DNA of 55,105 nt from Pirellulales bacterium (lineage in GTDB: Bacteria > Planctomycetota > Planctomycetia > Pirellulales > Lacipirellulaceae): positions 1 to 55,105 of the forward strand of contig JAKVCB010000008.1 in assembly GCA_022448345.1 (NCBI GenBank). The letters are read 5' to 3'. The translations under genes were made by a program, and so were the position numbers. The notes beneath the pieces were generated by a model, which had not been told where the DNA came from, did no database searches, and saw only the letters and a list, made by a program, of their open reading frames with translations. Below are positions 2,677 through 22,384 of the stretch, piece after piece; the first letter of the stretch is position 1; the number at the start of each line of letters is the position of its first letter.

Positions 2677-2895
2677 ATGCGCCGCATGCTGGATGCGTTG
2701 GATTTTTGAGTGGATGAACAATTCGTCAAACGGTTGTTTGCCATGGTTGGCAGGACAGGTCTTTCTTCGTAGTGCTCCTGTGGCGGTGGGCATCTGAAAG
2801 TTCTGAGTTGTGAAACGCGCCCCGGTTGGAGACGGTTCGCTGATACCGAATCGACGCGGCTCTACAGGTTCGAAAGACCATTTTTCTACGTGGCT

Positions 2896-2915
2896 GCAAC
2901 GGTTGTGGCCGTTGC
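2896..2915. repeat. 7-bp perfect inverted repeat
   Basis: GCAACGG (2896-2902) and CCGTTGC (2909-2915) flank a 6-nt loop. No T-tract follows. It lies 12 nt before a second, larger hairpin, so the two could be adjacent stems of one structured RNA. Confidence 0.5.
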
Positions 2916-2927
2916 GATAGAACCAAC

Positions 2928-2957
2928 AAGGAACACCCTGTTTTGATCAGGTTCCTT
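2928..2957. repeat. Bulged 10-bp hairpin
   Basis: AAGGAAC and CTG (2928-2934 and 2938-2940, separated by a 3-nt bulge) pair with CAGGTTCCTT (2948-2957) across a 7-nt loop, TTTTGAT. The stem is long enough to be stable as RNA on either strand. It is not followed by T residues. Confidence 0.5.
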
Positions 2958-3010
2958 CGCGACGACAGCCAATCGTGGTCCACAAAGGAGGCCAAACTGC
3001 AATACTGGCG

Positions 3011-3042
3011 ACGGCCTGTCGGTTCGGGCGAGGGCCGTTTTT
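3011..3042 (+). terminator. Weak terminator-like hairpin with T5 tract
   Basis: ACGGCC (3011-3016) pairs with GGCCGT (3033-3038) across a 16-nt loop, and the T run covers 3038-3042. A stem of six base pairs with a large loop is marginal for an intrinsic terminator. It is noted because it closes the cluster of hairpins that begins near 2.9 kb. Confidence 0.3.
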
Positions 3043-3411
3043 GGCGGAGACCTACCGTTTACGCATAAAGAATTGGTGACCGATGTCGGATCGGAGGCAG
3101 CAATTCTGATAACCCTATTGTCACGCAATCGCGGGCCTCCCGAGAGGATAAGGAGGGTGCCCGTTGGATAGGAGGACATCATCGTACGGCCAACACGGGA
3201 CAGGTGAAGGGCCAGAGGGCGATATCAGGGTAGTTTTCCCTGCAAAAGTGGGCCAAAGCAGCCCATTGGGGACGCAAAACGCGTTGGGGATGAGGCGGGC
3301 AGCAACCAGGCCTAAGTCTCCGTTGTTTTGGTCGAGTCCCATGGGTCACACAGATTTGAAAGGAAAATCTCCATGCATCAGGTACGTTTTTCAGGACTTT
3401 TGTCTTTTTTC

Positions 3412-3440
3412 TTGACGACCCCGTCGGTTGTAGATAGATT
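3412..3440 (+). promoter_or_regulatory. Sigma70-type promoter for the PEP-CTERM gene
   Basis: TTGACG (3412-3417; five of six consensus) and TAGATT (3435-3440; four of six) are separated by exactly 17 nt. A start of transcription near 3447 would give a leader of about 73 nt to the GTG at 3520. This also supports that start over the upstream in-frame ATG at 3373, which lies before the promoter. Confidence 0.55.
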
Positions 3441-3519
3441 GGATTTCGTGGGGCGGTTATCGAGGGTTTCGGCAGCGGACGCTGCTCCGGTGGCCCCTGA
3501 CGCAATAAGGAGTTTGCCT

Positions 3520-3915
3520 GTGTTGAGACAAAGTAAAATTAGCTTCTGCTCTCTGGTAGCGTGTGTGATTTGCGCCGCCAGTTGTTTTTTGGCGGGTCCA
3601 TCTTGGGCGGCGCCAACGGCTATCAGTCAACAGATCGCCGAAGAGTTCGATCGTCATCTGATAACTTCCCAGATTACCGAAGATTCTCATGGAATGGCCG
3701 AGGACGCCCCTTTGTTGATCGGTCCAGTCGACGATTCGATCTCCCAAACTCCAGCGGCCCAAGTTCCGGTCGATTTGCTGGTCGAGCCAGAGGAATCAGA
3801 ACGCAAGTTCCAGCCAATCCCTGAGCCATCGTCGTTGGCGTTGTTGGGCGGTTTGGGTGGCCTCATGTTTTTCATTCACCGCCTGCGGGCATATTTTGAT
3901 CGCTCTGCAGCTTGA
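3520..3915 (+). CDS. Small PEP-CTERM sorting-signal protein
   Basis: A 131-residue secreted protein. The N-terminus is a signal peptide of about 30 residues (charged start, hydrophobic Ala/Cys-rich core, ending near SWAAP). The middle is about 65 residues of Asp/Glu/Ser-rich sequence without a recognised fold. The C-terminus from about residue 101 has the tripartite PEP-CTERM signal: PEPSSLALL, a hydrophobic helix, then basic HRLR. In organisms with exosortase this tail is cleaved or anchored during export to the envelope or matrix; no exosortase gene is in this window. The GTG start is chosen because AAGGAG lies 7 nt upstream (3507-3512) and because it begins directly with the signal peptide. 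The reading frame is open upstream to 3328, but that extension has no ribosome-binding site. The function of the mature part is unknown. Confidence 0.75.
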   Translation: MLRQSKISFCSLVACVICAASCFLAGPSWAAPTAISQQIAEEFDRHLITSQITEDSHGMAEDAPLLIGPVDDSISQTPAAQVPVDLLVEPEESERKFQPIPEPSSLALLGGLGGLMFFIHRLRAYFDRSAA

Positions 3916-4063
3916 TAACGCAGTTCTGTAACGCAACTGGGTAGCTTTGGGTGTTCAATCTTTGCTGACCGTTTTCTACGGGTGCTTTGCACTCCGGCGG
4001 GGCTCCTGGAAATCTTCCGCTAGGAATCAGGTTCACTTTTCGAGATAATGTCACTCCCGGTGA

Positions 4064-4966
4064 ATGTCGGTCAGGTTGGCTGCCGTGGGCAACCAATATC
4101 AACCGGCGCCGTGGTGCATGAAAGAACCTCCCCCCCTTGTTTTGGGGCGACTCGCTACCTTGACCAATTCACCACCCCTTATCGAACTGGATGACGTCGC
4201 GTTTCATGTCGACGGGCATCCCGTCGTTGCCGGACTCCATTGGCGGCTTGAGGCAGGAGAGCGCTGGGCCGTGTTGGGGCCCAACGGCTCAGGGAAGACG
4301 ACCTTGCTGCGCATTGCCACCGGTTATTTGTGGCCAACTTCCGGAGTGGTCCGCCGGCTTGGCAGGCAGCGCATCGATCTAGGAGTTTTGCGTCGGAGCA
4401 TTGGTTGGATTTCTGCTGGACTGCTGGCCCAGATACCAAACGACGAACCTGCGCGAGATACGGTGGTTTCCGGGCGATTCGCACAAATTGGCCTGAAGAA
4501 TCTCGAGTGGTTGCGACCAACTGCAGACGACCGCGCGCAGGCTGACTATCGGCTTGAGCAACTTGGCTGTCAGGATCTGGCCAACCGACCATTTGGAGTG
4601 CTTTCGCAAGGTGAAAAGCAGAAGGTCTTGATTGCCCGGGCTCGGATGGCCGAACCGGTCTTATTGATTCTCGACGAACCGTGTGCGGGAATGGACCCGG
4701 GAGGCCGGGAGCGGATGCTGGCTGCGGTGCAGGCTGTGGCAGAGGACGACCCCCGACTGGCGATTGTTTTGGTGACACATCATGTGGAGGAGATCATGCC
4801 GGCATTCTCGCATACCATGGTCATGAGTGGCGGGCGGATCGTCACCATGGGGGCCACGACCGATGTGGTCACGCCGGAGAAGCTGAGCGAAATTTATGGG
4901 GTCTCGGTTGCTGAGATGGTGGAGTCGGCCGGACGACATTGGCCTATTTGGAACCTGCGGCTCTGA
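4064..4966 (+). CDS. ABC transporter ATP-binding protein (ModF/YlmA-like)
   Basis: A cytoplasmic ATPase subunit of about 280-300 residues with a single nucleotide-binding domain. In order: Walker A GPNGSGKTT, signature LSQGEKQKV, Walker B LLILDEP, and H-loop THHVEE. All key residues are intact. The closest type I can name is the YlmA/ModF group of stand-alone ATPases with a THHxEE loop, often annotated as iron-complex or molybdenum import ATPases. No permease or binding protein lies nearby, so the transporter partner and substrate are unknown, and a non-transport role is possible. Start uncertain: ATG at 4064 is used, but ATG at 4118 or TTG at 4160 would also keep the whole domain, which begins around PPLIELDDV. 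No clear ribosome-binding site decides it. Confidence 0.85.
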   Translation: MSVRLAAVGNQYQPAPWCMKEPPPLVLGRLATLTNSPPLIELDDVAFHVDGHPVVAGLHWRLEAGERWAVLGPNGSGKTTLLRIATGYLWPTSGVVRRLGRQRIDLGVLRRSIGWISAGLLAQIPNDEPARDTVVSGRFAQIGLKNLEWLRPTADDRAQADYRLEQLGCQDLANRPFGVLSQGEKQKVLIARARMAEPVLLILDEPCAGMDPGGRERMLAAVQAVAEDDPRLAIVLVTHHVEEIMPAFSHTMVMSGGRIVTMGATTDVVTPEKLSEIYGVSVAEMVESAGRHWPIWNLRL

Positions 4967-5154
4967 AAATTCACATCCGGCGGCGTTTTGACCAACCATC
5001 CGAATCGTGCGAGCATATGGGTGATTGGCTGTGGTGTGTGGTGTAGAATAAGAGTCGTCGGCAGCAAAAACGGTATTTCTCGCGCGCCAAGCCCTGTCGC
5101 TGCCCCGGTGGGCGCGGTTGGCGTCAATCGATAGCTTCTTCCTTCTGCAATTCG

Positions 5155-6258
5155 ATGGCTCACTCCAAGTTGCGGCGACAGATTGCCTGGGAAGCGGCCC
5201 GGCTCATGTACGACCGCCAGGAGTCGGAGTACTATCGGGCCAAAATGAAGGCCGCCCGTCGAGTTTGCCTTGGTTGGGTCAAGCCGGCCGATCTTCCCAG
5301 CAATGTTGAGATTCGAGACGAGATTCAGACGTATGCCCGGATGATGGAAGGAGACCGGCGGACAACCAATTTAGAGGCCATGCGGATTACGGCGCTGCGC
5401 TTGATGCGCTTGTTGGCACCCTTTCGGCCCCGGCTCATCGGAAGCGTGCTGACCGGCCACATTCGGCAAGGTTCTGACATCGACCTGCATCTTTTCTCCG
5501 ATACCACCGAAGCGGTTACCCATTTGCTCGACCATGAATGGATCCCTTACAGCCTTGAGCAAAAACGGGTTCGCAAGCAGGGGGCAGAGACGCTCTACAC
5601 TCACCTGCACCTGACAGATGAATTTCCCGTGGAACTGACAATTTATGCCCGTGACCAGGCACACTTCGTGTTCAAGAGTTCCATCACCGGCAAAGCCATT
5701 GAACGGGCCAGTATTGCTCAGCTGGAGCAGCTGCTGGGCCGGGAATATCCCGATTTGAATATCGATGAGGCGGTACTCCAGGAGAGTGAGCGGGTTGACC
5801 GGTTTCAACTTTATGAATCGCTGCTGCTCCCGCTGGAAAATGTGGAGCAGGATCGACATTATCATCCTGAGGGCGATGCGCTTTACCACAGCTTGCAGGT
5901 TTTTGATCGTGCTTGCGACGTGCTTTCCTATGACGAAGAATTTCTGACTGCAGCCCTCCTGCACGACGTTGGCAAAGCGATTGACCCCAAGGACCATGTG
6001 GCCTCAGGGCTTGAGGCGATTGCAGGCTTTATCACCCCCCGGACTTCCTGGCTGATCGAAAACCACATGTTGGCACATAAGGTTCGTGACGGGACGTTGG
6101 GGGCCCGGGCGAAGCGCAGGCTTCAGCGCAATGAGTCGTATGGCGAGTTGATCCTGCTGGCCGAGTGTGATCGGGCGGGACGGCAGCCCGGAGTTGAGGC
6201 ACCCGAGTTGGAAGAGGCGCTGGATTACCTGCGCGAGCTCAAAACGATGTTTGGCTAG
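5155..6258 (+). CDS. Nucleotidyltransferase-HD domain fusion protein
   Basis: A 367-residue soluble protein joining two catalytic modules. Residues about 75-175 look like a MNT/pol-beta nucleotidyltransferase: GS at 96-97, DID at 108-110 as the metal pair, and a probable third carboxylate in PVELTIY near 160. Residues about 235-345 form an HD phosphohydrolase domain: His237/His245, HD at 270-271 (LLHDVGK), His281 and a late Asp in AECDRAG. An N-terminal helical region of about 60 residues precedes them. The order nucleotidyltransferase then HD recalls CCA-adding enzymes and GlnD, but the tRNA-binding and ACT regions of those families are absent. It probably adds a nucleotide to, or hydrolyses one from, an RNA, protein or small molecule. 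The substrate is unknown. No strong ribosome-binding site is seen before the ATG. Confidence 0.8.
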   Translation: MAHSKLRRQIAWEAARLMYDRQESEYYRAKMKAARRVCLGWVKPADLPSNVEIRDEIQTYARMMEGDRRTTNLEAMRITALRLMRLLAPFRPRLIGSVLTGHIRQGSDIDLHLFSDTTEAVTHLLDHEWIPYSLEQKRVRKQGAETLYTHLHLTDEFPVELTIYARDQAHFVFKSSITGKAIERASIAQLEQLLGREYPDLNIDEAVLQESERVDRFQLYESLLLPLENVEQDRHYHPEGDALYHSLQVFDRACDVLSYDEEFLTAALLHDVGKAIDPKDHVASGLEAIAGFITPRTSWLIENHMLAHKVRDGTLGARAKRRLQRNESYGELILLAECDRAGRQPGVEAPELEEALDYLRELKTMFG

Positions 6259-6293
6259 TTCGTTTTCCGTGGTGGGCACGATGCAACGGCGGT

Positions 6294-6683
6294 CTACTTG
6301 CCCTTGGGATTGTCGACAAAATAGGTGTCCCTCTCGGGACGGCAACCGGGAACATGGATGTCCAGCATTTCCAGTGGTTCATTGTCCGTGATGAATGCGT
6401 GCCGGGTGCCTGGCGGTAGTCGCAGAAAATCTCCCGGTTTTAGTGTCTGGGGCGCACCATCCAGGACAGCGGTTCCGGTGCCGGCCAAGATGAAATAAAA
6501 TTCCTCGGCCACTCGATGGTAGCTGGGTGTGGTTTGCTGATGGGGTTCGACCCTTACACGGTACGCGGTAGCGGCAGCCTCCTGGTCCTCGGTCAATAAG
6601 GGCTCTATTTGGTAGGGGCCCAGCTGCTGGACGGGTTCTGTGGTACCACTGGAACGATGGACCAGTTGTTTGCGTGCACTCAT
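6294..6683 (-). CDS. Single-domain cupin protein
   Basis: A 129-residue protein with one conserved beta-barrel cupin. Motif 1 is read as YHRVAEEFYFILAG and motif 2 as GDFLRLPPGTRHAF. Metal ligands would be His in motif 1, Glu in EEFYF and His in TRHAF; the first motif has YH where many cupins have HxH, so the metal site may be three-ligand or modified. Such small cupins serve as dioxygenases, isomerases or sugar/ligand sensors, and no specific role can be given. The ATG at 6683 is preferred over an in-frame TTG at 6713. It is divergent from the GNAT gene and convergent with the nucleotidyltransferase-HD gene. Confidence 0.8.
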   Translation of the reverse strand: MSARKQLVHRSSGTTEPVQQLGPYQIEPLLTEDQEAAATAYRVRVEPHQQTTPSYHRVAEEFYFILAGTGTAVLDGAPQTLKPGDFLRLPPGTRHAFITDNEPLEMLDIHVPGCRPERDTYFVDNPKGK

Positions 6684-6908
6684 GTTTGCTTTTAACTTGC
6701 TGGTGAAAGACAACGCTTATGAGGGAGCTTAACCGTATTTTAGCAATGAAAACCGGGTAGTTTGATTTTCGAGGTTTTTCCTTGGGCTGCAACCTGTAGT
6801 TAGGCGTTCCAGTCAGCATCCTATCGGGCTGCTCGTAACCATTTGACCGTGAGTGCCACGGCTTGTGTCCTTTATTGGGGTCAGTCATGTTCCGGGAGTT
6901 TACGTGAG

Positions 6909-7418
6909 ATGTCTGCCGCTGGTCGAAAAATGATTTGTCACTTAAGGAAGTTTCCCCTTAGTTGCGCGGCAGTCGAGGTGCCAGATGCCGTTTTGCTCAG
7001 ACCGTTTGAAGACCCGGTTGATGTGGCTGGCTGGTTGCAGTTACGGGAAGTTGTCTTTGAGGCCACCTCGCCCGGAGTCGGAAAATGGACTGAGCACGAT
7101 TTTGTCCGTGAAATGAGTGGCAAGGTCTGGTGGCGACCAGACCACACGTGGGTGGCGGTTGAGGGCAAGCAGCCGGAGTCCATGCTCGGTGCGGTCACCT
7201 CGATTTTGCGGAGCCGCAAGGGGGGGCTCGTCGCAGACGTGCATTGGCTGATGGTGCATCCCGCCTGGCAGAGGCGGGGGATTGGGCAGTGCCTGCTACA
7301 ACAGTTGGAACAGGTGATGTGGCACAAAGGGGCCACTCAATTATGCGTGGAAACCCATCGTGGATGGGAATCGGCAGTCCGTCTTTACGAGCGCTTAGGC
7401 TACCGCGCGCGTTTATGA
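6909..7418 (+). CDS. GNAT-family N-acetyltransferase
   Basis: A 169-residue protein with the GNAT acetyl-CoA-binding signature: the beta4-alpha3 segment HWLMVHPAWQRRGIG, where QRRGIG is the pyrophosphate-binding loop, and a late AVRLYERLGY motif typical of the last strand-helix. It transfers an acyl group from CoA to an amine on a small molecule or protein; the acceptor is unknown. The ATG at 6909 has GGGAG about 9 nt upstream. An in-frame start at 6843 would add 22 residues of unlikely sequence. Its stop overlaps the purN stop by 6 nt, tail to tail. Confidence 0.85.
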   Translation: MSAAGRKMICHLRKFPLSCAAVEVPDAVLLRPFEDPVDVAGWLQLREVVFEATSPGVGKWTEHDFVREMSGKVWWRPDHTWVAVEGKQPESMLGAVTSILRSRKGGLVADVHWLMVHPAWQRRGIGQCLLQQLEQVMWHKGATQLCVETHRGWESAVRLYERLGYRARL

Positions 7419-12104: not shown

Positions 12105-12411
12105 TGCTTTTTGGTCCCCTATTTAATTGGAAAGAAAAACAAGAATCTTCACAAACTCGTCTTCGGCATAGACCAACGGGCTCTCTGGCTTTGGCAGGTC
12201 TTTTGCCGCCGGCGGTTTCTCACGACAACTGGGAATTCTCTATTACATGCCCGAAGTTTGTCAAGAATTGATCTCTTCGATTGGTCATTTGGGGGTGCGG
12301 GATGGCCCAGGTTTCCGATTTCCGTGAAAAAACTGGCTTGCGTTGGGCTTCACGGCCGCTTAAGTTCTGTGACTCTGGAAATTCTGGGATATTTTGGAAA
12401 AGAGTCCTGTC
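12105..12411. other. Intergenic region ahead of the BshB1-like gene
   Basis: About 307 nt between the divergent acidic ORF and the deacetylase. Short open frames here have no coding character. No clear promoter pair or hairpin with a T-run was seen. Confidence 0.5.
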
Positions 12412-13131
12412 ATGAGTTTGCCTCCACAACTCGATATTATTGCGGTTGGTGCCCATCCGGATGACGTGGAAATCGCTTGCGGGGGGATTCTGGCCCGATT
12501 GGCTCGTCAGGGGCATTCTGTCGGAATCATTGATTTGACCGACGGAGAACCAACCCCCCTGTCTCCAGGTCCTGAGGTGCGGCTGGCCGAAGCCAAAGAC
12601 GCCGCAGCCGTGTTGGGGGTTCAGCACCGTGTGACCCTTGAGCTTCCCAATCGGAGACTTTTCGATTCGTTTGAAGCACGAACGTTGCTTGCCACCGAAT
12701 TCCGCCGCTATCGGCCCAAATTGGTGATCGGGTTGGGGGCCAGCACGCCAACCGCTTCACCCGACCACTGGCAGGCAATGCAGATCACCGATGCTGCTGT
12801 TTTCTATGCAAAACTGACCAAGTGGGATGAACACTTTGATGGTTTGCCCCCGTTGGTGATCCCTGCCTTGTTGCATTGCTACCTCATCGATCAAGAAGAG
12901 GCCTTATCACGACCTGGGCGGATCATCGCCGACATCAGCGACACGCTCCAGCTCAAGTTGGCGGCAATACGGTGCTATAAAACTCAATTTCCTCCTGAGA
13001 AAGAGTATGTCTTCCAACGGGTCGAAGCGGCAGCCCAATTTTTGGGGCAGGCATCGAGAGTGGAAGCTGCCGAGTTACTGACCAGTCCCCGCCCAGTCTC
13101 GGTTCCTGACTTGATGGGATTTCTTTTTTAA
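12412..13131 (+). CDS. PIG-L/LmbE-family deacetylase, BshB1-like
   Basis: A 239-residue zinc-dependent N-deacetylase. Metal ligands are read as His15 and Asp18 in AHPDDVE (residues 14-20) and His119 in SPDHWQA. The order of blocks (AVGAHPDDVEI, IIDLTDGE, EVRLAEAKDAAAVLG, LELPNR) closely follows BshB1, which deacetylates GlcNAc-malate in bacillithiol synthesis; several LmbE relatives act on other GlcNAc conjugates. No other bacillithiol gene (bshA, bshC) is in the window, so the pathway is inferred from similarity only. The ATG at 12412 follows a GGAAAAGAG stretch. The stop overlaps the pseudouridine synthase stop by 4 nt, tail to tail. Confidence 0.8.
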   Translation: MSLPPQLDIIAVGAHPDDVEIACGGILARLARQGHSVGIIDLTDGEPTPLSPGPEVRLAEAKDAAAVLGVQHRVTLELPNRRLFDSFEARTLLATEFRRYRPKLVIGLGASTPTASPDHWQAMQITDAAVFYAKLTKWDEHFDGLPPLVIPALLHCYLIDQEEALSRPGRIIADISDTLQLKLAAIRCYKTQFPPEKEYVFQRVEAAAQFLGQASRVEAAELLTSPRPVSVPDLMGFLF

Positions 13132-15222: not shown

Positions 15223-17265
15223 ATGCCCGACCTCAATCCCCCACAAGATGATGCCGTTCACACGCTCAGCGGCCCGCTCCTGGTGCTTGCTGGGGCGGGT
15301 ACTGGTAAGACCCGCGTGGTCACCTATCGCGTGGCAGAGTTGATTCGCACCGGGACAGCCCCCGAGCGAATTCTGGCTGTAACGTTCACCAAGAAGGCGG
15401 CAGCTGAAATGCGGGAACGTACGGCCAAACTTTTGTCCGGCGGCAGGAGGCGATCCAAGCGGGATAAGCGTCGTCCCGAAATCTCTACGTTTCACTCGCT
15501 TTGTGTGCGCATTTTACGCCGGCACATTGGCCGGTTGGGATATCCCGACTCGTTTACGATTTGTGACCGTGGCGAACAGGAAAGTGTTGCCAGGGCGACA
15601 TTGCGAACGTTGAAAACCCCTACCGACTCGCTCCGGCCGGCAGATCTGCTTGCCATCATCGGCCGTTGGAAAATGAGGTCGGTATGGCCCCCGGAAGCGA
15701 TCGGTCTGGCAGAGACCGATCGCGAGCACGTGGCAGCTATTGCCTATCGGCGTTACCAGGACAGCTTGAAGTCCATTGGCTCGGTCGACTTTGATGATTT
15801 GTTGCTGTTGACCGAGGAAGTCTTTACAAAATGGCCAAGTGTTCGTCGTGAAGAGGCAGCCCGTTTCGACCACGTGTTGATCGACGAGTATCAGGATACC
15901 AACCAAAGTCAGTATCAGATTGTGCGTGGTTTGGCGATGGGGCATCGCAACCTATGTGTGGTTGGTGATGACGACCAATCGATCTATGCCTGGCGGGGAG
16001 CGGAAGTTACCCATATTTTGCGATTTCAGCAGGACTGGCCCGATGCCAAGATTGTTCGGCTCGTTGACAATTACCGTTCCACTGCAGCCATTTTGCACTT
16101 TGCCAATACACTCATTGAGTTCAATCAGACACGGCATGAAAAACAACTCGTGGCAGTTCGCCCAGGTGGTCAGCGGCCACGGATTTTACAATGCAGCCAT
16201 GAAACCGAAGAAGCCCAACAGGTCGTCGCTGATATCAAAGCCCGTCTGCTCGAGACCAAGACCGAGCCCAAGGATATCGCGATCCTTTTTCGCACCAATG
16301 AGCAACCGCGGGCCTTTGAAGCAGAACTCAGACAGGCGGATGTTCCGTATGTTTTGATTGGGGGAATGTCGTTTTTCGATCGCCGCGAGGTCCGCGACAT
16401 TTTTGCCTATTTGCGAGTCATTCAGAACCCGCTTGATGAGCCTTCGCTGCGCCGCATTCTCAATCAGCCACCGCGCGGAATTAGTGATGCAGTGCGAAAA
16501 AAGCTGGTTGATGGTGCCGTTGCCGAGGCAAAGTCGTTCTGGGATTTTTTGCCATCAGCTGGTTCCGTGGATGGCCTCAGCACCAAGGCGGCTGAGGCGG
16601 TTGCCAGGTTCTATCAAACTATGGTCGAGTTGCGGCAGCGCAGCGAAGAGTGTCCGGTCCACATTCTCATTTCAGAGCTGATTGAGCGCATTGGGTATCG
16701 CGACGAACTGGTGCGACAATATCCCAATCCGGAAGAACGAGATTCGCGACTGGCAGCGGTAGAAGAAATTGTCAACGCCGCAGCCAACTGGCAAGGAAAC
16801 CAGGGTAAGGTAGGGAAGCATTCTCGGGCTCGAGCCTCAAAGTCAACGCCAGGCCAATCTCTCCTCGGCGCATTCCTGGACGACATTATCCTCTCGCAAC
16901 AGGAGGAGAGCGATGACAAGGATGCCCAGCTTTCCCGCAATGCGGTTGCCTTGATGACGCTCCATAGCGCCAAGGGCCTGGAATTCCCAGAGGTTTATCT
17001 GGTTGGAATGGAGGAGGGGATCTTGCCTCACAAGCGGTCCTTGGAAGTCGATGGCCAGGCGGTCGACGAGGAACGCAGGCTTTGCTACGTGGGAATCACT
17101 CGAGCCCAGACACGGCTCACCATGACGCTGGCGCTGACGCGACGGAAATGGGGGAAGCCCCGCGAGTCGTTTCCAAGTCGGTTTCTCTTTGAAATGACTG
17201 GCCAGGCGGACAATCCGCGTTCGCCTGGCCAGAAGTCCTCCTCCAAGAGGCAGCGGAAGGGGTAG
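15223..17265 (+). CDS. rep: ATP-dependent 3'-5' DNA helicase, Rep/UvrD/PcrA family
   Basis: A 680-residue superfamily 1A helicase that unwinds DNA at stalled forks or repair gaps. In order: Q motif LNPPQDDAV (residues 4-12), Walker A GAGTGKT (24-30), motif Ia LAVTFTKKAAAEM, motif II DEYQDT (221-226), motif III QSIYAWRGA, motif IV DNYRST, and motifs V/VI TLHSAKGLEFP and YVGITRAQTR. The C-terminal blocks (VGMEEGILPHKRS, RRLCYVGITRAQ, PSRFLFEM) follow E. coli Rep more than UvrD, and the long UvrD C-tail is missing, so rep is favoured. ATG at 15223. The gene is divergent from the TPR-like gene. Confidence 0.9.
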   Translation: MPDLNPPQDDAVHTLSGPLLVLAGAGTGKTRVVTYRVAELIRTGTAPERILAVTFTKKAAAEMRERTAKLLSGGRRRSKRDKRRPEISTFHSLCVRILRRHIGRLGYPDSFTICDRGEQESVARATLRTLKTPTDSLRPADLLAIIGRWKMRSVWPPEAIGLAETDREHVAAIAYRRYQDSLKSIGSVDFDDLLLLTEEVFTKWPSVRREEAARFDHVLIDEYQDTNQSQYQIVRGLAMGHRNLCVVGDDDQSIYAWRGAEVTHILRFQQDWPDAKIVRLVDNYRSTAAILHFANTLIEFNQTRHEKQLVAVRPGGQRPRILQCSHETEEAQQVVADIKARLLETKTEPKDIAILFRTNEQPRAFEAELRQADVPYVLIGGMSFFDRREVRDIFAYLRVIQNPLDEPSLRRILNQPPRGISDAVRKKLVDGAVAEAKSFWDFLPSAGSVDGLSTKAAEAVARFYQTMVELRQRSEECPVHILISELIERIGYRDELVRQYPNPEERDSRLAAVEEIVNAAANWQGNQGKVGKHSRARASKSTPGQSLLGAFLDDIILSQQEESDDKDAQLSRNAVALMTLHSAKGLEFPEVYLVGMEEGILPHKRSLEVDGQAVDEERRLCYVGITRAQTRLTMTLALTRRKWGKPRESFPSRFLFEMTGQADNPRSPGQKSSSKRQRKG

Positions 17266-17492: not shown

Positions 17493-18752
17493 ATGGCTCA
17501 GACTCCCTTACGTCTGGTGCATGCCAGTGATTTACACCTGGAGCGACCCCCGTTCGGATTGGACAAAGTCCCGCCAGCTCTGCGGGATATTTTTGTCGAA
17601 GCCCCTTACCAGGCGGCCGAGCAGGTTTTTGAAACAGTCCTCTCGGAAGGAGCCGATGCCCTGCTGTTGGCGGGCGATGTCGTTGACGTTGCCCGTGCCG
17701 GCCCGCCATCGATTGTCTTCCTGATTGAGCAGTTTTCCCGCCTTGCCGACCGTGGCATTCCTGTTTTTTGGGCAGGTGGTTCCATTGATCCTCCCCACAG
17801 TTGGCCTCCTAGTGCCACATTGCCCGAAAACGTTCACCTGTTTCCGGTGGGCCATGTCGAATCGTTTGAACTTCGGCGCAAGGGGCATGTTGTTGCGCGG
17901 ATTCAGGGGACGAGTGCCGGGCAATCGCAGGTTGTCGAAGCGGGCCAATTCCATCGTGATCGAGAAGGATTATTCACCGTTGGAGTGGCTTATGGCACTG
18001 ATGCTTTGCCTGGCCGTGAGGGAGATCGAGTCCATTACATGGCCCTTGGTGGCCGGCATCAGCCGGGGACCGTCGACTGTGAGCCGGGAATAGCACATTA
18101 CTCGGGAACGCCTCAGGGACGGGGGCCCCGTGAGATCGGGCCTCACGGTTGCACGTTGGTTCAGATCGACGAAACCGGGCACGTACAAAATCAATTTATC
18201 GCCACCGATACCGTTCGTTGGCTTGAAGAAACGGTCGAGATTACCGCTTCGACTCGCAGCGAAGAGCTTGAAAAACGTCTGGAAACGAGCCTCGAAAAAC
18301 TCCAGGCCAGGCATCCTGGGGTCGAACTATTGATTTGCTGGCGTGTTTGCGGAGTCGGGCCTCTGGTGCACCGCTTACGAGCGGGTGGGTTGGCTGACGA
18401 AATTATCGACCGCCTGCGACGCACCTACGGCGAGCGGTCGCCTGCTGCCTACACTGCCACGATCGAAAGTGATTCGCCGCTGAGTGTCCCTGCCGAATGG
18501 TACGACGAACAAACGGTGGTCGGCGATTTGTTGCGGGAATTTAACCAGTTTGAAAAAGATGAGTCTTTGGCTCTCGAACTGTCCCGTTTCCTGCCGGCGG
18601 GAATGGAAAAAGATCCCCTGGCTGGAATTGCCGAAATTAGTTCGCCTGAGGTGCGGAATTGCCTCCTGCAGTCAGCTGTCAAACTCGGCGTGGACTTAAT
18701 CGACGTTCCGGTGGACGAAGCCCTCCAGCAGCAGGCCGAAGAAGCCGCCTAG
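17493..18752 (+). CDS. YhaO/SbcD-like metallophosphoesterase with degraded metal ligands
   Basis: A 419-residue protein of the DNA-repair exonuclease-type phosphoesterase family, placed just before an SMC-like ATPase as SbcD and YhaO are. Motifs I and II are intact: SDLHLE (residues 12-17) and AGDVVD (60-65). Motif III, normally GNHD, reads GSID (96-99). The His that normally follows in a VxxxH strand is Tyr167 (VGVAYG). The last motif, normally GHxH, reads GGRH (186-189). Three of five ligand motifs have therefore lost a residue, so nuclease activity as known for the family is doubtful; the protein may be structural or use a different site. The start ATG at 17493 has AAGGAGG 5-11 nt upstream; an in-frame ATG at 17304 adds 63 residues of non-conserved sequence. 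Confidence 0.8.
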   Translation: MAQTPLRLVHASDLHLERPPFGLDKVPPALRDIFVEAPYQAAEQVFETVLSEGADALLLAGDVVDVARAGPPSIVFLIEQFSRLADRGIPVFWAGGSIDPPHSWPPSATLPENVHLFPVGHVESFELRRKGHVVARIQGTSAGQSQVVEAGQFHRDREGLFTVGVAYGTDALPGREGDRVHYMALGGRHQPGTVDCEPGIAHYSGTPQGRGPREIGPHGCTLVQIDETGHVQNQFIATDTVRWLEETVEITASTRSEELEKRLETSLEKLQARHPGVELLICWRVCGVGPLVHRLRAGGLADEIIDRLRRTYGERSPAAYTATIESDSPLSVPAEWYDEQTVVGDLLREFNQFEKDESLALELSRFLPAGMEKDPLAGIAEISSPEVRNCLLQSAVKLGVDLIDVPVDEALQQQAEEAA

Positions 18753-18829
18753 CAGACCGGTTGCTTTTGCTCGATTGCCAAACTTTTGTCACCACACACG
18801 CCCATCGCTTGCCAATCCAGGAAATGACC

Positions 18830-21800
18830 ATGCGTATTACCGACCTTCATATTGATGGCTTTGGTGTCTGGCACGACCTGACGCTTCGCGCCTTATCGCC
18901 CGGGATGACCGTCTTTTATGGCCCCAACGAAGCAGGCAAGACCACCCTCCTGCAGTTTTTGCGGTCGGTGTTGTATGGGATTTCCCCAGAGCGGCGCAAG
19001 CAGTACCTCCCCCCTCTGGCGGGTGGCCTTCCAGGGGGATGGCTCAACGTGGACGGTGAACTGGGGGAGGTCAAAATCCAGCGGATTGCTGACCGGGGTC
19101 CAAAAGATGTGGGAAAGGTCACGATTTTTGCCTCCGACGGTATTGAGCACGGCGATCGGCAACTTCTGGAGGCGCTCGAGCACGTTGACGAGATGACGTA
19201 CAACAACGTCTTTGCAGTCGGTTTGCGCGAAATTCAAGAGCTGGGAACCTTGAGTGGGACGGCCGCAGCGCAGTGGCTTTACCGGCTTGCGTCGGGCGTG
19301 GATCGCGTTTCGCTGTACGACGTGATTCATCTTTTGCGAGGGTCTTTATCGCGATTGCTTAACGTGACGGATACCAAATCCACGATTCGGGAATTAGTGG
19401 AACGTCGTGAAGTGCTGCAGGGAGAACTCCACGAATTGATTGAGAAAGGGCGACGTTGGGCTCAGTCGGCGGTCAAGTTGCGCGAACTGGCAGATGAGAT
19501 TCAAGCAATGCAGGACGAGTCGAAGCAGCTTGGGAAGCAGGGACGCCATCTGGAAACTGCGATCAACCTCAAGCCACTTTGGATTCGACGAGACCAATTG
19601 GACAAACAGATTGCCTCGTACGATCATCTGGTTCCACTTTCCGATTCCGCCATTTCGGAACTTGAAGAATTGAATGAACGGATTGCCGCTCACCAGCGGG
19701 ATCGTGACCTTTGCAAGGCACAGCGGAAGCAACTCCGTAGCGAGGTTAAATCCCTTAATATCAACCAAATGCTCGAGGTAAATACTTCTCGGCTCCTGGG
19801 TCTCGAAGAACAGCAGGAATGGATCGGGGGACTCGAGCGGCAAATGGAAGAACTGGACGAAGAAATCGTTGCATTGGAAAATCGATGCGAAGCTGAACAG
19901 ACCCAGCTGGTGAACCGTTGGCTGGGAGACGGTGTTCACGCGGGACCTGTTTCACCCGACTTGTTAGACCAGTTGCAGCCCCAGGCGCGGGCGATTGAGG
20001 CAGCCAAGACGCTTGTCGATCAGGCTGAAGCGGAATTGGCGGCACGCCATCACAGCGAACGCAACTATCGTGACCAGTTAACGACGGCTGTGGCTAACAG
20101 CGACAAAAGGGGCTTGCCTGGCGATATTGAGGCGACCACCAACCTGGTGGCTACTTTGCGTCACCGGCTGGAAGTAGAGCAGCGCGTTGGGCAGGCGCGG
20201 AGCAAGCTTCGTAACTTGGAGCAGAAGAATTATGAATTTGCCGAAAGTCAGCTTTTGTCACTCAACTGGTTTTCGTTTCTGTTGATTGCGTTTGTTGTCA
20301 GTTGTGTCCTGGCTGGTTCACGGTTGATTGGATGGCTTCCGGAGGGCTCGATGCTTCATCTGCTCGCTGGCTGGGTTGGGCCGTTGGGCATTGTTGGTTG
20401 CATTGCTGCCGTTGTAGGGAAGTTTGTCCGTGAGTGGATGGCGGGGGATCGATTTGATGCTTGGGAGTTGGAACGGGAGCACGCAGAAGAGAGCCTCAAG
20501 CAGGCCGAGGAAGAACAGGAAAAGCTGGCCCAGGAGGTTCCTCTTGCCAAGGGGTCCGCAGCCTTGAAGTTGGAGCAGGCGGAACACCACTTGAGCGAAC
20601 TCGAAAAGACCCTGCCGGTTGAAAATGAACGTCGAGTGGCCCAGCAAGAGATTGTGACCGCCGAGTCGCGGCTTGAACAAGCTCGAAAGAAACATGAAGT
20701 GGCTCTCAGTAACTGGCAAAACAAAGTGCGGTCTCTGGGGTTGGCCGAGACGGTCAAGCCGGTGGACATTGATGGGATTAACCGCAATTCGCGGCAGTTG
20801 GAAGATTTTCAAGAGCGGAAAGCCGGTCGTTGTGAAGAGCGCGACCGGCGCCATCGCGAGTTCGAGGCCGTTGTCAAACGAATCCGCAACCTGGCCATTG
20901 AGGCAAGCCTGGTCGAAGAAGCAATGACGCCGCTGGAGCAACTGGAACACATGCTGGAAGTTCACCGGGTCCAGCAAGACCAGCTCAAGCGACGCGATAC
21001 CTTAAAAGTAAGAGCTAGAAAACTCAAAGCGGAGGAAACGCGACACGCCCGAGTAGTCCAGCAACTGACAGGACGTCGTGAGGCCATGTTTCAGCAGTGG
21101 GGTGTGGAGGATGAGCCTGAGTTGCGTCAATTGGCTGATAAGCATGCCAAGGGTGATAAGCTCCGTGAAAAACGCAAAGGTCTTTGTCGAGAAATCGTGG
21201 CCGCCATTGGACGGCGGGGTTCGGAAAAAGACTTTGCTGCTTTTATGGTCCCGGAAAAGATCGAGTCTCTGCAGGAAGAGTTGCAGGCCATTACCGCCCG
21301 CGATGAGCAGCTCGTCGCTGAACTTAAAGAGCTCTTGGAACGGAGGGGGCAACTGGTTGAACAGCAACGTCACCGCGCCGAAGATCGTTCCCTGGCCTAT
21401 AAGCAGTTGGAGATCGACGAAATAGATCAACAGATATACAGGGCCCGGAAAGCGTGGCGCGAGCGGGCAGTCGTTTACTGTATGCTGGAGCGAATTCAGA
21501 AAGAATACGAAAAGAACAGGCAGCCCGAAACGCTACTGGAAGCCTCCGGTTACCTGCGAAAGCTTACCGATGGGCGCTACACGCGTGTGTGGACCCCCTT
21601 GGCCATGGACGTGTTGTTTGTCGAAACGGCCGATGGCGAGTCGCTGCCTGTGGAAGTGCTCAGTACCGGTACACGCGAGCAATTGTTTGTGAGTCTAAGA
21701 ATGGCGATGGTGGCTATGTATGGACGGCGTGGTATTCAACTACCCATGATTCTGGACGATGTCCTGGTGAATTTTGATGCCGATCGTACCAGGACGGCTG

Positions 21801-22384
21801 TGCAAGTTTTGCATGATTTTTCCAAGCAAGGGCACCAGCTGTTATTTTTTACATGCCACAAACATGTATGGAGAATGTTTCAGGAAATCAAAGCCGATGC
21901 GCGTAACTTGCCGGACCGGTTTGAACCCGGTACTTCGTTAGAACCAGTGCAAGCCAGCGTGATTCAACCCCAGGATATCGATTCGGAACCCTGGGAAGTG
22001 GACAAGGAGGGAAAAGAGGTTGGGGAGTCGCGATTTGATCGCGTTCCTGAACACGCCCAGGAGCGGAAAATCAAGCAGATTGAAATCGTCCAATCGTCCG
22101 AGCCGCTGCCTGATTATTCGTACGAGGAAACGCTCGATCTTGAGCCTCCTCCGGTCACAGAGTTCGAGTACGAATTTGAAGATCCCAACCAACCCGACAG
22201 TCAGCCGGTCGAAGTGGAGTATACGTGGGCCACTCGGATGGAAGTCGCGTCGACAGGGGGCTCGCCGACACCTCAAGAGGAGCATGCGGTGGGACAAAAT
22301 GTCGATCCAATGGTCCAGCCACTCGCAGGCGTTGGTGGATCGGTTGGCAGAGACCAGCAGGGGAGTCCCGATTCGGGTCGCTAG
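18830..22384 (+). CDS. YhaN-like AAA/SMC-type ATPase with membrane hairpin in the coiled coil
   Basis: A 1184-residue ATPase of the Rad50/SbcC/YhaN type. Walker A GPNEAGKTT is at residues 31-39; long coiled coils follow on both sides of a central hydrophobic region. The ABC signature equivalent LSTGTREQLF lies near 943 and Walker B MILDDVLVNFD near 972. Two predicted transmembrane helices (about 478-500 and 515-538) replace the Rad50 zinc hook, as in B. subtilis YhaN, so the coiled-coil apex would be inserted in the membrane. A tail of about 170 residues, rich in Glu, Pro and Gln, follows the head. It starts 78 nt after the phosphoesterase gene; ATG at 18830 with AGGA 7 nt upstream is preferred over ATG at 18824. 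The two proteins probably form one complex acting on DNA ends near the membrane, by analogy only. Confidence 0.82.
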   Translation: MRITDLHIDGFGVWHDLTLRALSPGMTVFYGPNEAGKTTLLQFLRSVLYGISPERRKQYLPPLAGGLPGGWLNVDGELGEVKIQRIADRGPKDVGKVTIFASDGIEHGDRQLLEALEHVDEMTYNNVFAVGLREIQELGTLSGTAAAQWLYRLASGVDRVSLYDVIHLLRGSLSRLLNVTDTKSTIRELVERREVLQGELHELIEKGRRWAQSAVKLRELADEIQAMQDESKQLGKQGRHLETAINLKPLWIRRDQLDKQIASYDHLVPLSDSAISELEELNERIAAHQRDRDLCKAQRKQLRSEVKSLNINQMLEVNTSRLLGLEEQQEWIGGLERQMEELDEEIVALENRCEAEQTQLVNRWLGDGVHAGPVSPDLLDQLQPQARAIEAAKTLVDQAEAELAARHHSERNYRDQLTTAVANSDKRGLPGDIEATTNLVATLRHRLEVEQRVGQARSKLRNLEQKNYEFAESQLLSLNWFSFLLIAFVVSCVLAGSRLIGWLPEGSMLHLLAGWVGPLGIVGCIAAVVGKFVREWMAGDRFDAWELEREHAEESLKQAEEEQEKLAQEVPLAKGSAALKLEQAEHHLSELEKTLPVENERRVAQQEIVTAESRLEQARKKHEVALSNWQNKVRSLGLAETVKPVDIDGINRNSRQLEDFQERKAGRCEERDRRHREFEAVVKRIRNLAIEASLVEEAMTPLEQLEHMLEVHRVQQDQLKRRDTLKVRARKLKAEETRHARVVQQLTGRREAMFQQWGVEDEPELRQLADKHAKGDKLREKRKGLCREIVAAIGRRGSEKDFAAFMVPEKIESLQEELQAITARDEQLVAELKELLERRGQLVEQQRHRAEDRSLAYKQLEIDEIDQQIYRARKAWRERAVVYCMLERIQKEYEKNRQPETLLEASGYLRKLTDGRYTRVWTPLAMDVLFVETADGESLPVEVLSTGTREQLFVSLRMAMVAMYGRRGIQLPMILDDVLVNFDADRTRTAVQVLHDFSKQGHQLLFFTCHKHVWRMFQEIKADARNLPDRFEPGTSLEPVQASVIQPQDIDSEPWEVDKEGKEVGESRFDRVPEHAQERKIKQIEIVQSSEPLPDYSYEETLDLEPPPVTEFEYEFEDPNQPDSQPVEVEYTWATRMEVASTGGSPTPQEEHAVGQNVDPMVQPLAGVGGSVGRDQQGSPDSGR

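Follow-up and report, generated by a model that had tools for sequence, protein, structure and literature searches.

The gene pair at 17493 to 22384 of the window, by which we mean the whole 55,105-nucleotide stretch of Pirellulales DNA analyzed here, is best explained, at a probability of roughly 55%, as encoding an Mre11-Rad50-like complex of the YhaO/YhaN type that has lost its nuclease activity, is anchored in the membrane and would use ATP to clamp or tether DNA, the phosphoesterase serving as scaffold. The phosphoesterase-like protein P0001 (419 aa) is encoded on the forward strand at 17493..18752, starting from the ATG at 17493, and the ATPase P0002 (1184 aa) on the same strand at 18830..22384, starting from the ATG at 18830. 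The phosphoesterase gene lies directly upstream with 77 bases between the two. P0001 matched the phosphoesterase domain PF00149 over residues 6-104 with 28.4 bits (cut-off 21.5), and P0002, a Rad50/YhaN-like protein with a long coiled coil, matched PF13514 (AAA_27, the YhaN family) with 56.2 bits (cut-off 22). These matches bear out the SbcD/SbcC or YhaO/YhaN layout proposed in the initial annotation, in which a phosphoesterase gene adjoins the gene for a Rad50/YhaN-type ATPase. Against the curated SbcD model TIGR00619, P0001 scored 22.9 bits, under the cut-off of 77.65; this score decides little by itself because the ligand-intact relative in the same genome is also under the cut-off (57.2 bits). 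A PcrA/UvrD-type helicase gene (15223-17265) lies directly upstream of the pair on the same strand. L013, L047 and L048 have a helicase homologue near the pair, as in part do L071 and L073; the arrangement is not general, and an operon with the helicase was dropped as a candidate because it is not widely conserved. Farther upstream (12394-13131) is a gene for a bacillithiol BshB1-like deacetylase, which matched TIGR04001 with 142.9 bits, below the cut-off of 182.5.

P0001 has lost four of the eight metal-binding and acid residues of the active site (N, H, H and H to S97, I98, Y167 and G187), all read on the forward strand and compared with a family set of 25 degenerate proteins. Motif I is retained as D13-L14-H15 (17529..17537; D13 in 25/25 and H15 in 19/25 of the set), as is D62 of motif II (17676..17678; 22/25). 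GNHD is replaced by GSID (residues 96-99; 17778..17789), which removes the Asn and the acid His, each present in 0/25; the next conserved His is replaced by Y167 (17991..17993; His in 7/25); and GHxH is replaced by GGRH (residues 186-189; 18048..18059), with the first His changed to Gly (G187 in 25/25) and the second retained (H189 in 20/25). All three replacements had been described in the initial annotation. Its further statement that only motifs I and II are kept holds for those two motifs but overlooks H189 of GHxH and D99, the Asp of GNHD, which are also kept. By the usual superfamily assignment we take D13, H15, D62 and H189 to be the metal-1 set, and the lost residues to be the metal-2-specific set together with the acid His. 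The motifs DxH, GDxxD and GNHD/E, along with His173, His206 and His208 of P. furiosus Mre11, are given as conserved or nuclease residues in one account (PMC3175470), and another gives H85, the His of GNHD, as essential for nuclease activity (PMC4996933). Loss of two-metal nuclease chemistry in P0001, as had been proposed, is a well-supported prediction from these residues, whose loss is common to families rather than an accident of a single species, and P0001 is probably without nuclease activity. Because P0001 retains all four presumed metal-1 residues, with D13 invariant in the family set, some metal-dependent chemistry may be possible.

We compared the eight sites in sets of relatives from which L004, L017, L161, L162 and L168 were omitted. 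Among the 25 proteins of family f1, N97, H98 and H187 were kept in none, H167 in 7, D13 in 25, H15 in 19, D62 in 22 and H189 in 20; among 17 other Pirellulales proteins, N97, H98 and H187 were again kept in none, H167 in 6, D13 in 14, H15 in 14, D62 in 12 and H189 in 9, both sets consisting of degenerate proteins only, from groups in which intact pairs also exist. The family f4 set (n=22, including L050, L051 and L067) kept D13 in 5, H15 in 2, D62 in 3, N97 in 2, H98 in 3, H167 in 1, and H187 and H189 in none. N97, H98 and H187 were retained in 0/42 degenerate Pirellulales proteins. The initial annotation had asked if GSID and GGRH are conserved among homologues; as exact motifs they are not, since positions 97 and 98 vary freely and only G187 is fixed (42/42). 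The fewest changes required on the ATPase tree were 4 for N97, 4 for H98, 3 for H187 and 5 for D13, and 9 for H15, 11 for D62, 8 for H189 and 12 for H167. These data indicate that the acid residue and two metal-2 residues were lost first and that the rest eroded later, several times.

The same data bear on the question of whether P0001 is still an enzyme, either a one-metal or a rebuilt phosphoesterase that acts on DNA or another phosphoester through D13, H15, D62 and H189 together with new residues. All four of these residues are kept in 28/67 ligand-losing proteins readable at these sites, P0001 included, and the fates of H15, D62 and H189 tend to go together, with 29 proteins retaining all three, 20 lacking all three and 18 showing a mixture. 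A solved Mre11 structure with one manganese per site exists, and annotated pseudoenzymes can prove active according to one report (PMC12037411). Weighing on the other side, the conservation of H15 (0.76), H189 (0.80) and D62 (0.88) in the family set places them among mid to upper-third columns (mean 0.71), with 151, 134 and 108 of 334 columns, respectively, being better conserved; all three have been lost repeatedly over the tree, and the acid His and metal-2 ligands are gone. Because the remaining ligands were lost later and repeatedly, a rebuilt active site is less likely, and the pattern of loss fits a pseudoenzyme better than a rebuilt one-metal enzyme. We consider continued catalysis unlikely, if worth keeping in view. 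Degenerate proteins of family f4 (e.g. L062, L066 and L072) show a recurrent swap of D13/H15/D62 to N/R/N, and to account for Arg at position 15 the tree needs a minimum of 7 changes; here a positive charge perhaps replaces the metal. W104, found in 62/69 rows, was considered as a newly fixed residue of the degenerate clade and rejected; it was probably inherited, because three intact hairpin-type relatives (L076, L079 and L156) share GNHDPxxGW.

The ATPase partner retains its motifs, as read directly and from an alignment of the head. P0002 has a split ABC head, with Walker A (GPNEAGKT, residues 31-38; 18920..18943), the ABC signature (LSTGTRE, residues 944-950; 21659..21679) and Walker B (PMILDDVLV, residues 972-980, core ILDD; 21743..21769), all on the forward strand, arranged around the long coiled coil; TCH is present as well, in agreement with the intact motifs described earlier. 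Walker A, signature and Walker B are retained across the head alignment of relatives. A CxxC zinc hook is absent from the P0002 sequence. The middle of the coiled coil instead contains two 19-residue hydrophobic stretches, at residues 475-493 (20252..20308, forward strand; mean hydropathy 2.21) and 511-529 (20360..20416, forward strand; 2.16), called from hydropathy rather than by a topology predictor. The initial annotation had placed two membrane helices where Rad50 has its hook: the hydrophobic hairpin and the lack of CxxC are confirmed, and its insertion into the membrane is the probable interpretation of these stretches.

Structural models were made of both proteins. The P0001 model, built from 15 sequences, had a mean pLDDT of 68.6, with residues 169-180 and 182-206 (the GGRH loop) below 50. 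It matched Mre11/SbcD chains with Z-scores of 15.8-18.5 and at least 251 residues aligned, for instance 4tug_E (Z 18.5, rmsd 4.9, 267 residues) and 3dsd_A (Z 17.1, rmsd 3.5, 253 residues); Foldseek TM-scores of the matches were 0.38-0.54. From these comparisons P0001 is predicted to have the Mre11/SbcD calcineurin-like phosphoesterase fold with its capping domain. The P0002 model had a pLDDT of 64.1 and a pTM of 0.27, with poorly modeled heads, and no solved chain matching P0002 by sequence was found at 0.1. Its helices run from 185-262 onward to 473, then 478-499 and 508-569, and on to 896, the two middle ones corresponding to the hydrophobic stretches, which is consistent with a hairpin in the mid coiled coil. 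A long low-confidence tail follows after about residue 1030 (window 21920-22384).

To place the pair among its relatives, we drew upon several searches. A scan of genome contigs yielded 16 relatives; a single-protein search at 1e-5 found relatives in 53/294 genomes of the phylum, and profile A1 found them in 188/248 genomes of the class at 1e-10 and in 98/294 of the phylum at 1e-15, these three counts mixing intact and degenerate relatives. The comparison took in 40 + 60 + 20 regions, hand-picked by spread and score, together with four regions from plasmids and the second locus found in the same genome; after removal of two duplicate contigs, 140 phosphoesterases were compared. One or more of the eight residues had been lost in 69/140, including L004 and L017, which are cut at the contig start and are also changed at their readable sites; all eight were kept in 71/140. 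The 69 degenerate proteins lie beside a hairpin ATPase in 65 cases, beside a hairpin-less ATPase in 3 (L050, L051 and L067) and at a contig end in 1 (L010). The ATPase gene adjoins the phosphoesterase gene in 68/69, the exception being L010, and the partner carries the hairpin in 65/68 ligand-losing pairs with a readable partner. For the 71 ligand-intact proteins, 48 partners lack the hairpin, 15 exceed the hydropathy threshold of 1.6 (L099, a member of the non-hairpin clade with one borderline peak, was taken as lacking a hairpin in the kinship counts), and 8 have no partner frame above 600 aa, some due to contig ends and some to true absence or distance (L127, L130, L131 and L142). Strict pairing across the whole family was dropped as a claim: no ATPase head was detected beside intact L130/L202, L131 and L142/L203, and in L127/L204 about 3.4 kb separate the ATPase from the intact phosphoesterase. 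The ATPase beside the intact phosphoesterase of L074 is split between two frames (2875-5298 and 5387-6967), indicating a broken gene or an assembly error.

The counts were also broken down by kinship. All eight residues were kept in 27/30 relatives elsewhere in the phylum and in 4/4 on plasmids. Within the window's class, counted over the named planctomycete contigs, the same genome, and the same family, order and class, hairpin-type pairs lost ligands in 62/63 (the exception, L169, is a distant pair) and non-hairpin pairs kept all eight in 34/37 (the exceptions are the three hairpin-less degenerate pairs named above). Hairpin-type pairs outside the class were intact in 13/16. The degenerate pair was present in 13/13 sampled genomes of the window's family. 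Because relatives outside the class are mostly intact and the loss is common to whole families inside it, the ligand loss of P0001 goes beyond chance.

We also examined the ancestry of the pair. In a 57-row tree of the phosphoesterases, a branch with support 100/99 had the intact rows on one side and hence the degenerate rows on the other; the midpoint root, used for drawing only, splits the degenerate rows. In a tree of 54 ATPase heads the degenerate pairs formed one group (100/100). In a 124-row ATPase tree, 64/66 degenerate rows lay on one side of a branch with support 99, together with the intact, very-long-branch L169, and L161 and L168 of family f43 were placed apart; the 46 non-hairpin intact rows formed one clade with support 100. 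Family f43, from outside the class, has its own loss series of GNED (L161), GNAD (L162) and full loss (L168), all with hairpin partners. A third kind of pair is found in L050 (4542-7907), L051 (4825-7635) and L067 (4248-7601), in which the phosphoesterase is almost wholly degenerate and the ATPase has a hairpin-less coiled coil of much reduced length, with DE rather than DD in Walker B. The hairpin is older than the ligand loss because intact pairs elsewhere have it, such as the Deinococcus plasmid pair L171 with a hairpin and all ligands. The association of hairpin with ligand loss, tested over 2-3 independent contrasts, falls short of significance, and given these few contrasts and the existence of intact hairpin pairs we make no claim that the hairpin caused the loss. 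The distribution also makes an SMC-plus-effector defence system very improbable: the pair is present throughout the sampled genomes of its family, and the ATPase tree places families f1 and f4 in one group, although it scatters f3 and f98 at weak support. What speaks for defence are weak, partial matches of P0002 to defence ATPase models, the best being LeoBC at 1.9e-8 in the coiled coil; P0001 matched no PADLOC model at 0.1.

The degenerate pair is under purifying selection. Of 36 comparisons among degenerate members, 33 had usable dS, with dN/dS at 0.03-0.22 in 32 and at 0.40 in one (L069/L070, dS 0.06); of 12 intact comparisons, 11 were usable and gave 0.06-0.40. The comparisons were of sequences above 72% identity and not mutually independent, and with several dS values above 1 the ratios are rough. 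Decay of both genes into pseudogenes, or an artefact of assembly, would account for the many lost active-site residues but is contradicted by frames open in many genomes, low dN/dS, a fixed G187 and a conserved partner, and we give this explanation next to no credence.

A potential reason for the tolerated loss is a backup nuclease. The same genome (83% complete) has on contig C93 a second, ligand-intact phosphoesterase beside a hairpin-less ATPase, and 7/18 picked single-contig genomes (G439, G283, G291, G152, G363, G328 and G503) have a ligand-intact pair besides the degenerate one(s). In the other 11/18, searches with TIGR00619 at 0.001 and A1 at 1e-10, which could miss a more distant nuclease, found no ligand-intact SbcD-like protein; beyond the degenerate gene itself, these genomes yielded at most another kind of phosphoesterase, one with a hydrophobic N-terminal part. 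We accordingly rejected a backup nuclease as the general reason. A broader proposal, which we put forward tentatively and regard as doubtful, is that the nuclease was given up once, early in the window's class, and that the complex became a chromosome-clamping or tethering, membrane SMC-like machine, the only Mre11-Rad50-like complex in many species.

The hydrophobic hairpin and the loss of nuclease residues would also suit a membrane complex with a non-DNA job, for example envelope or membrane shaping, for which the arms and pseudo-phosphoesterase had been repurposed, and planctomycete cell biology is described as unusual (PMC10632474, in whose main text a term search gave no match on essentiality in Planctopirus limnophila). 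Two weak arguments point back to DNA: plasmid relatives are annotated, by homology, as DNA repair exonuclease and YhaN family or hypothetical protein, and the helicase gene lies just upstream, with homologues near the pair in a few relatives. We judge a non-DNA role rather improbable. Under the DNA clamp or tether that we favor, two P0002 chains would dimerize through ATP-sandwiched heads, with their coiled coils running to an inner-membrane hairpin in place of the zinc hook. P0001 would keep its fold and capping domain as a scaffold, providing a dimer interface, head attachment and DNA path without cutting, and DNA near the membrane would be clamped and released as ATP drives the heads to close and open. 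Formation of the complex, its binding of DNA and tethering by P0001-P0002 are the presumptive parts of this mechanism. There are precedents for its elements, in that MRN activation of ATM is reported to need neither the nuclease nor the hook connection (PMC3642328) and the Rad50 hook is described as a swappable dimerization module (PMC6969161).

The degenerate pair is a candidate for a chromosome-membrane link in planctomycetes. Structural and nuclease-dependent functions of Mre11-Rad50 have mostly been studied with engineered mutants; here entire bacterial families seem to offer a natural version of that experiment, in which the cutting site was given up and the ATPase and scaffold were retained. 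Because searches of the sensitivity given above found no ligand-intact SbcD-like protein in 11/18 genomes, the structural role could be studied without a nuclease paralogue. Among the matches listed from the openly licensed PubMed Central literature, none described a nuclease-dead or membrane-inserted YhaO/YhaN pair.

The window pair resembles known YhaO/YhaN-type pairs in gene order, phosphoesterase fold and ATPase head motifs; the hairpin is found in part of that family, and no CxxC hook was seen in their coiled coils either. It differs in its ligand loss, as relatives outside the window's class are mostly ligand-intact (27/30 in the phylum, 4/4 on plasmids). With SbcCD and Mre11-Rad50 it shares the fold of nuclease and capping domains and the paired Rad50-like ATPase, but it lacks the nuclease ligands and CxxC, has a hydrophobic hairpin instead, and falls under the SbcD cut-off. 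In eukaryotic DNA polymerases, the partner of the B-subunit is a polymerase rather than a Rad50-like ATPase, and no membrane part is known. These B-subunits offer a likeness to P0001 in that an inactive calcineurin-like phosphoesterase fold is reported to be kept in a non-catalytic subunit (PMC4996933).
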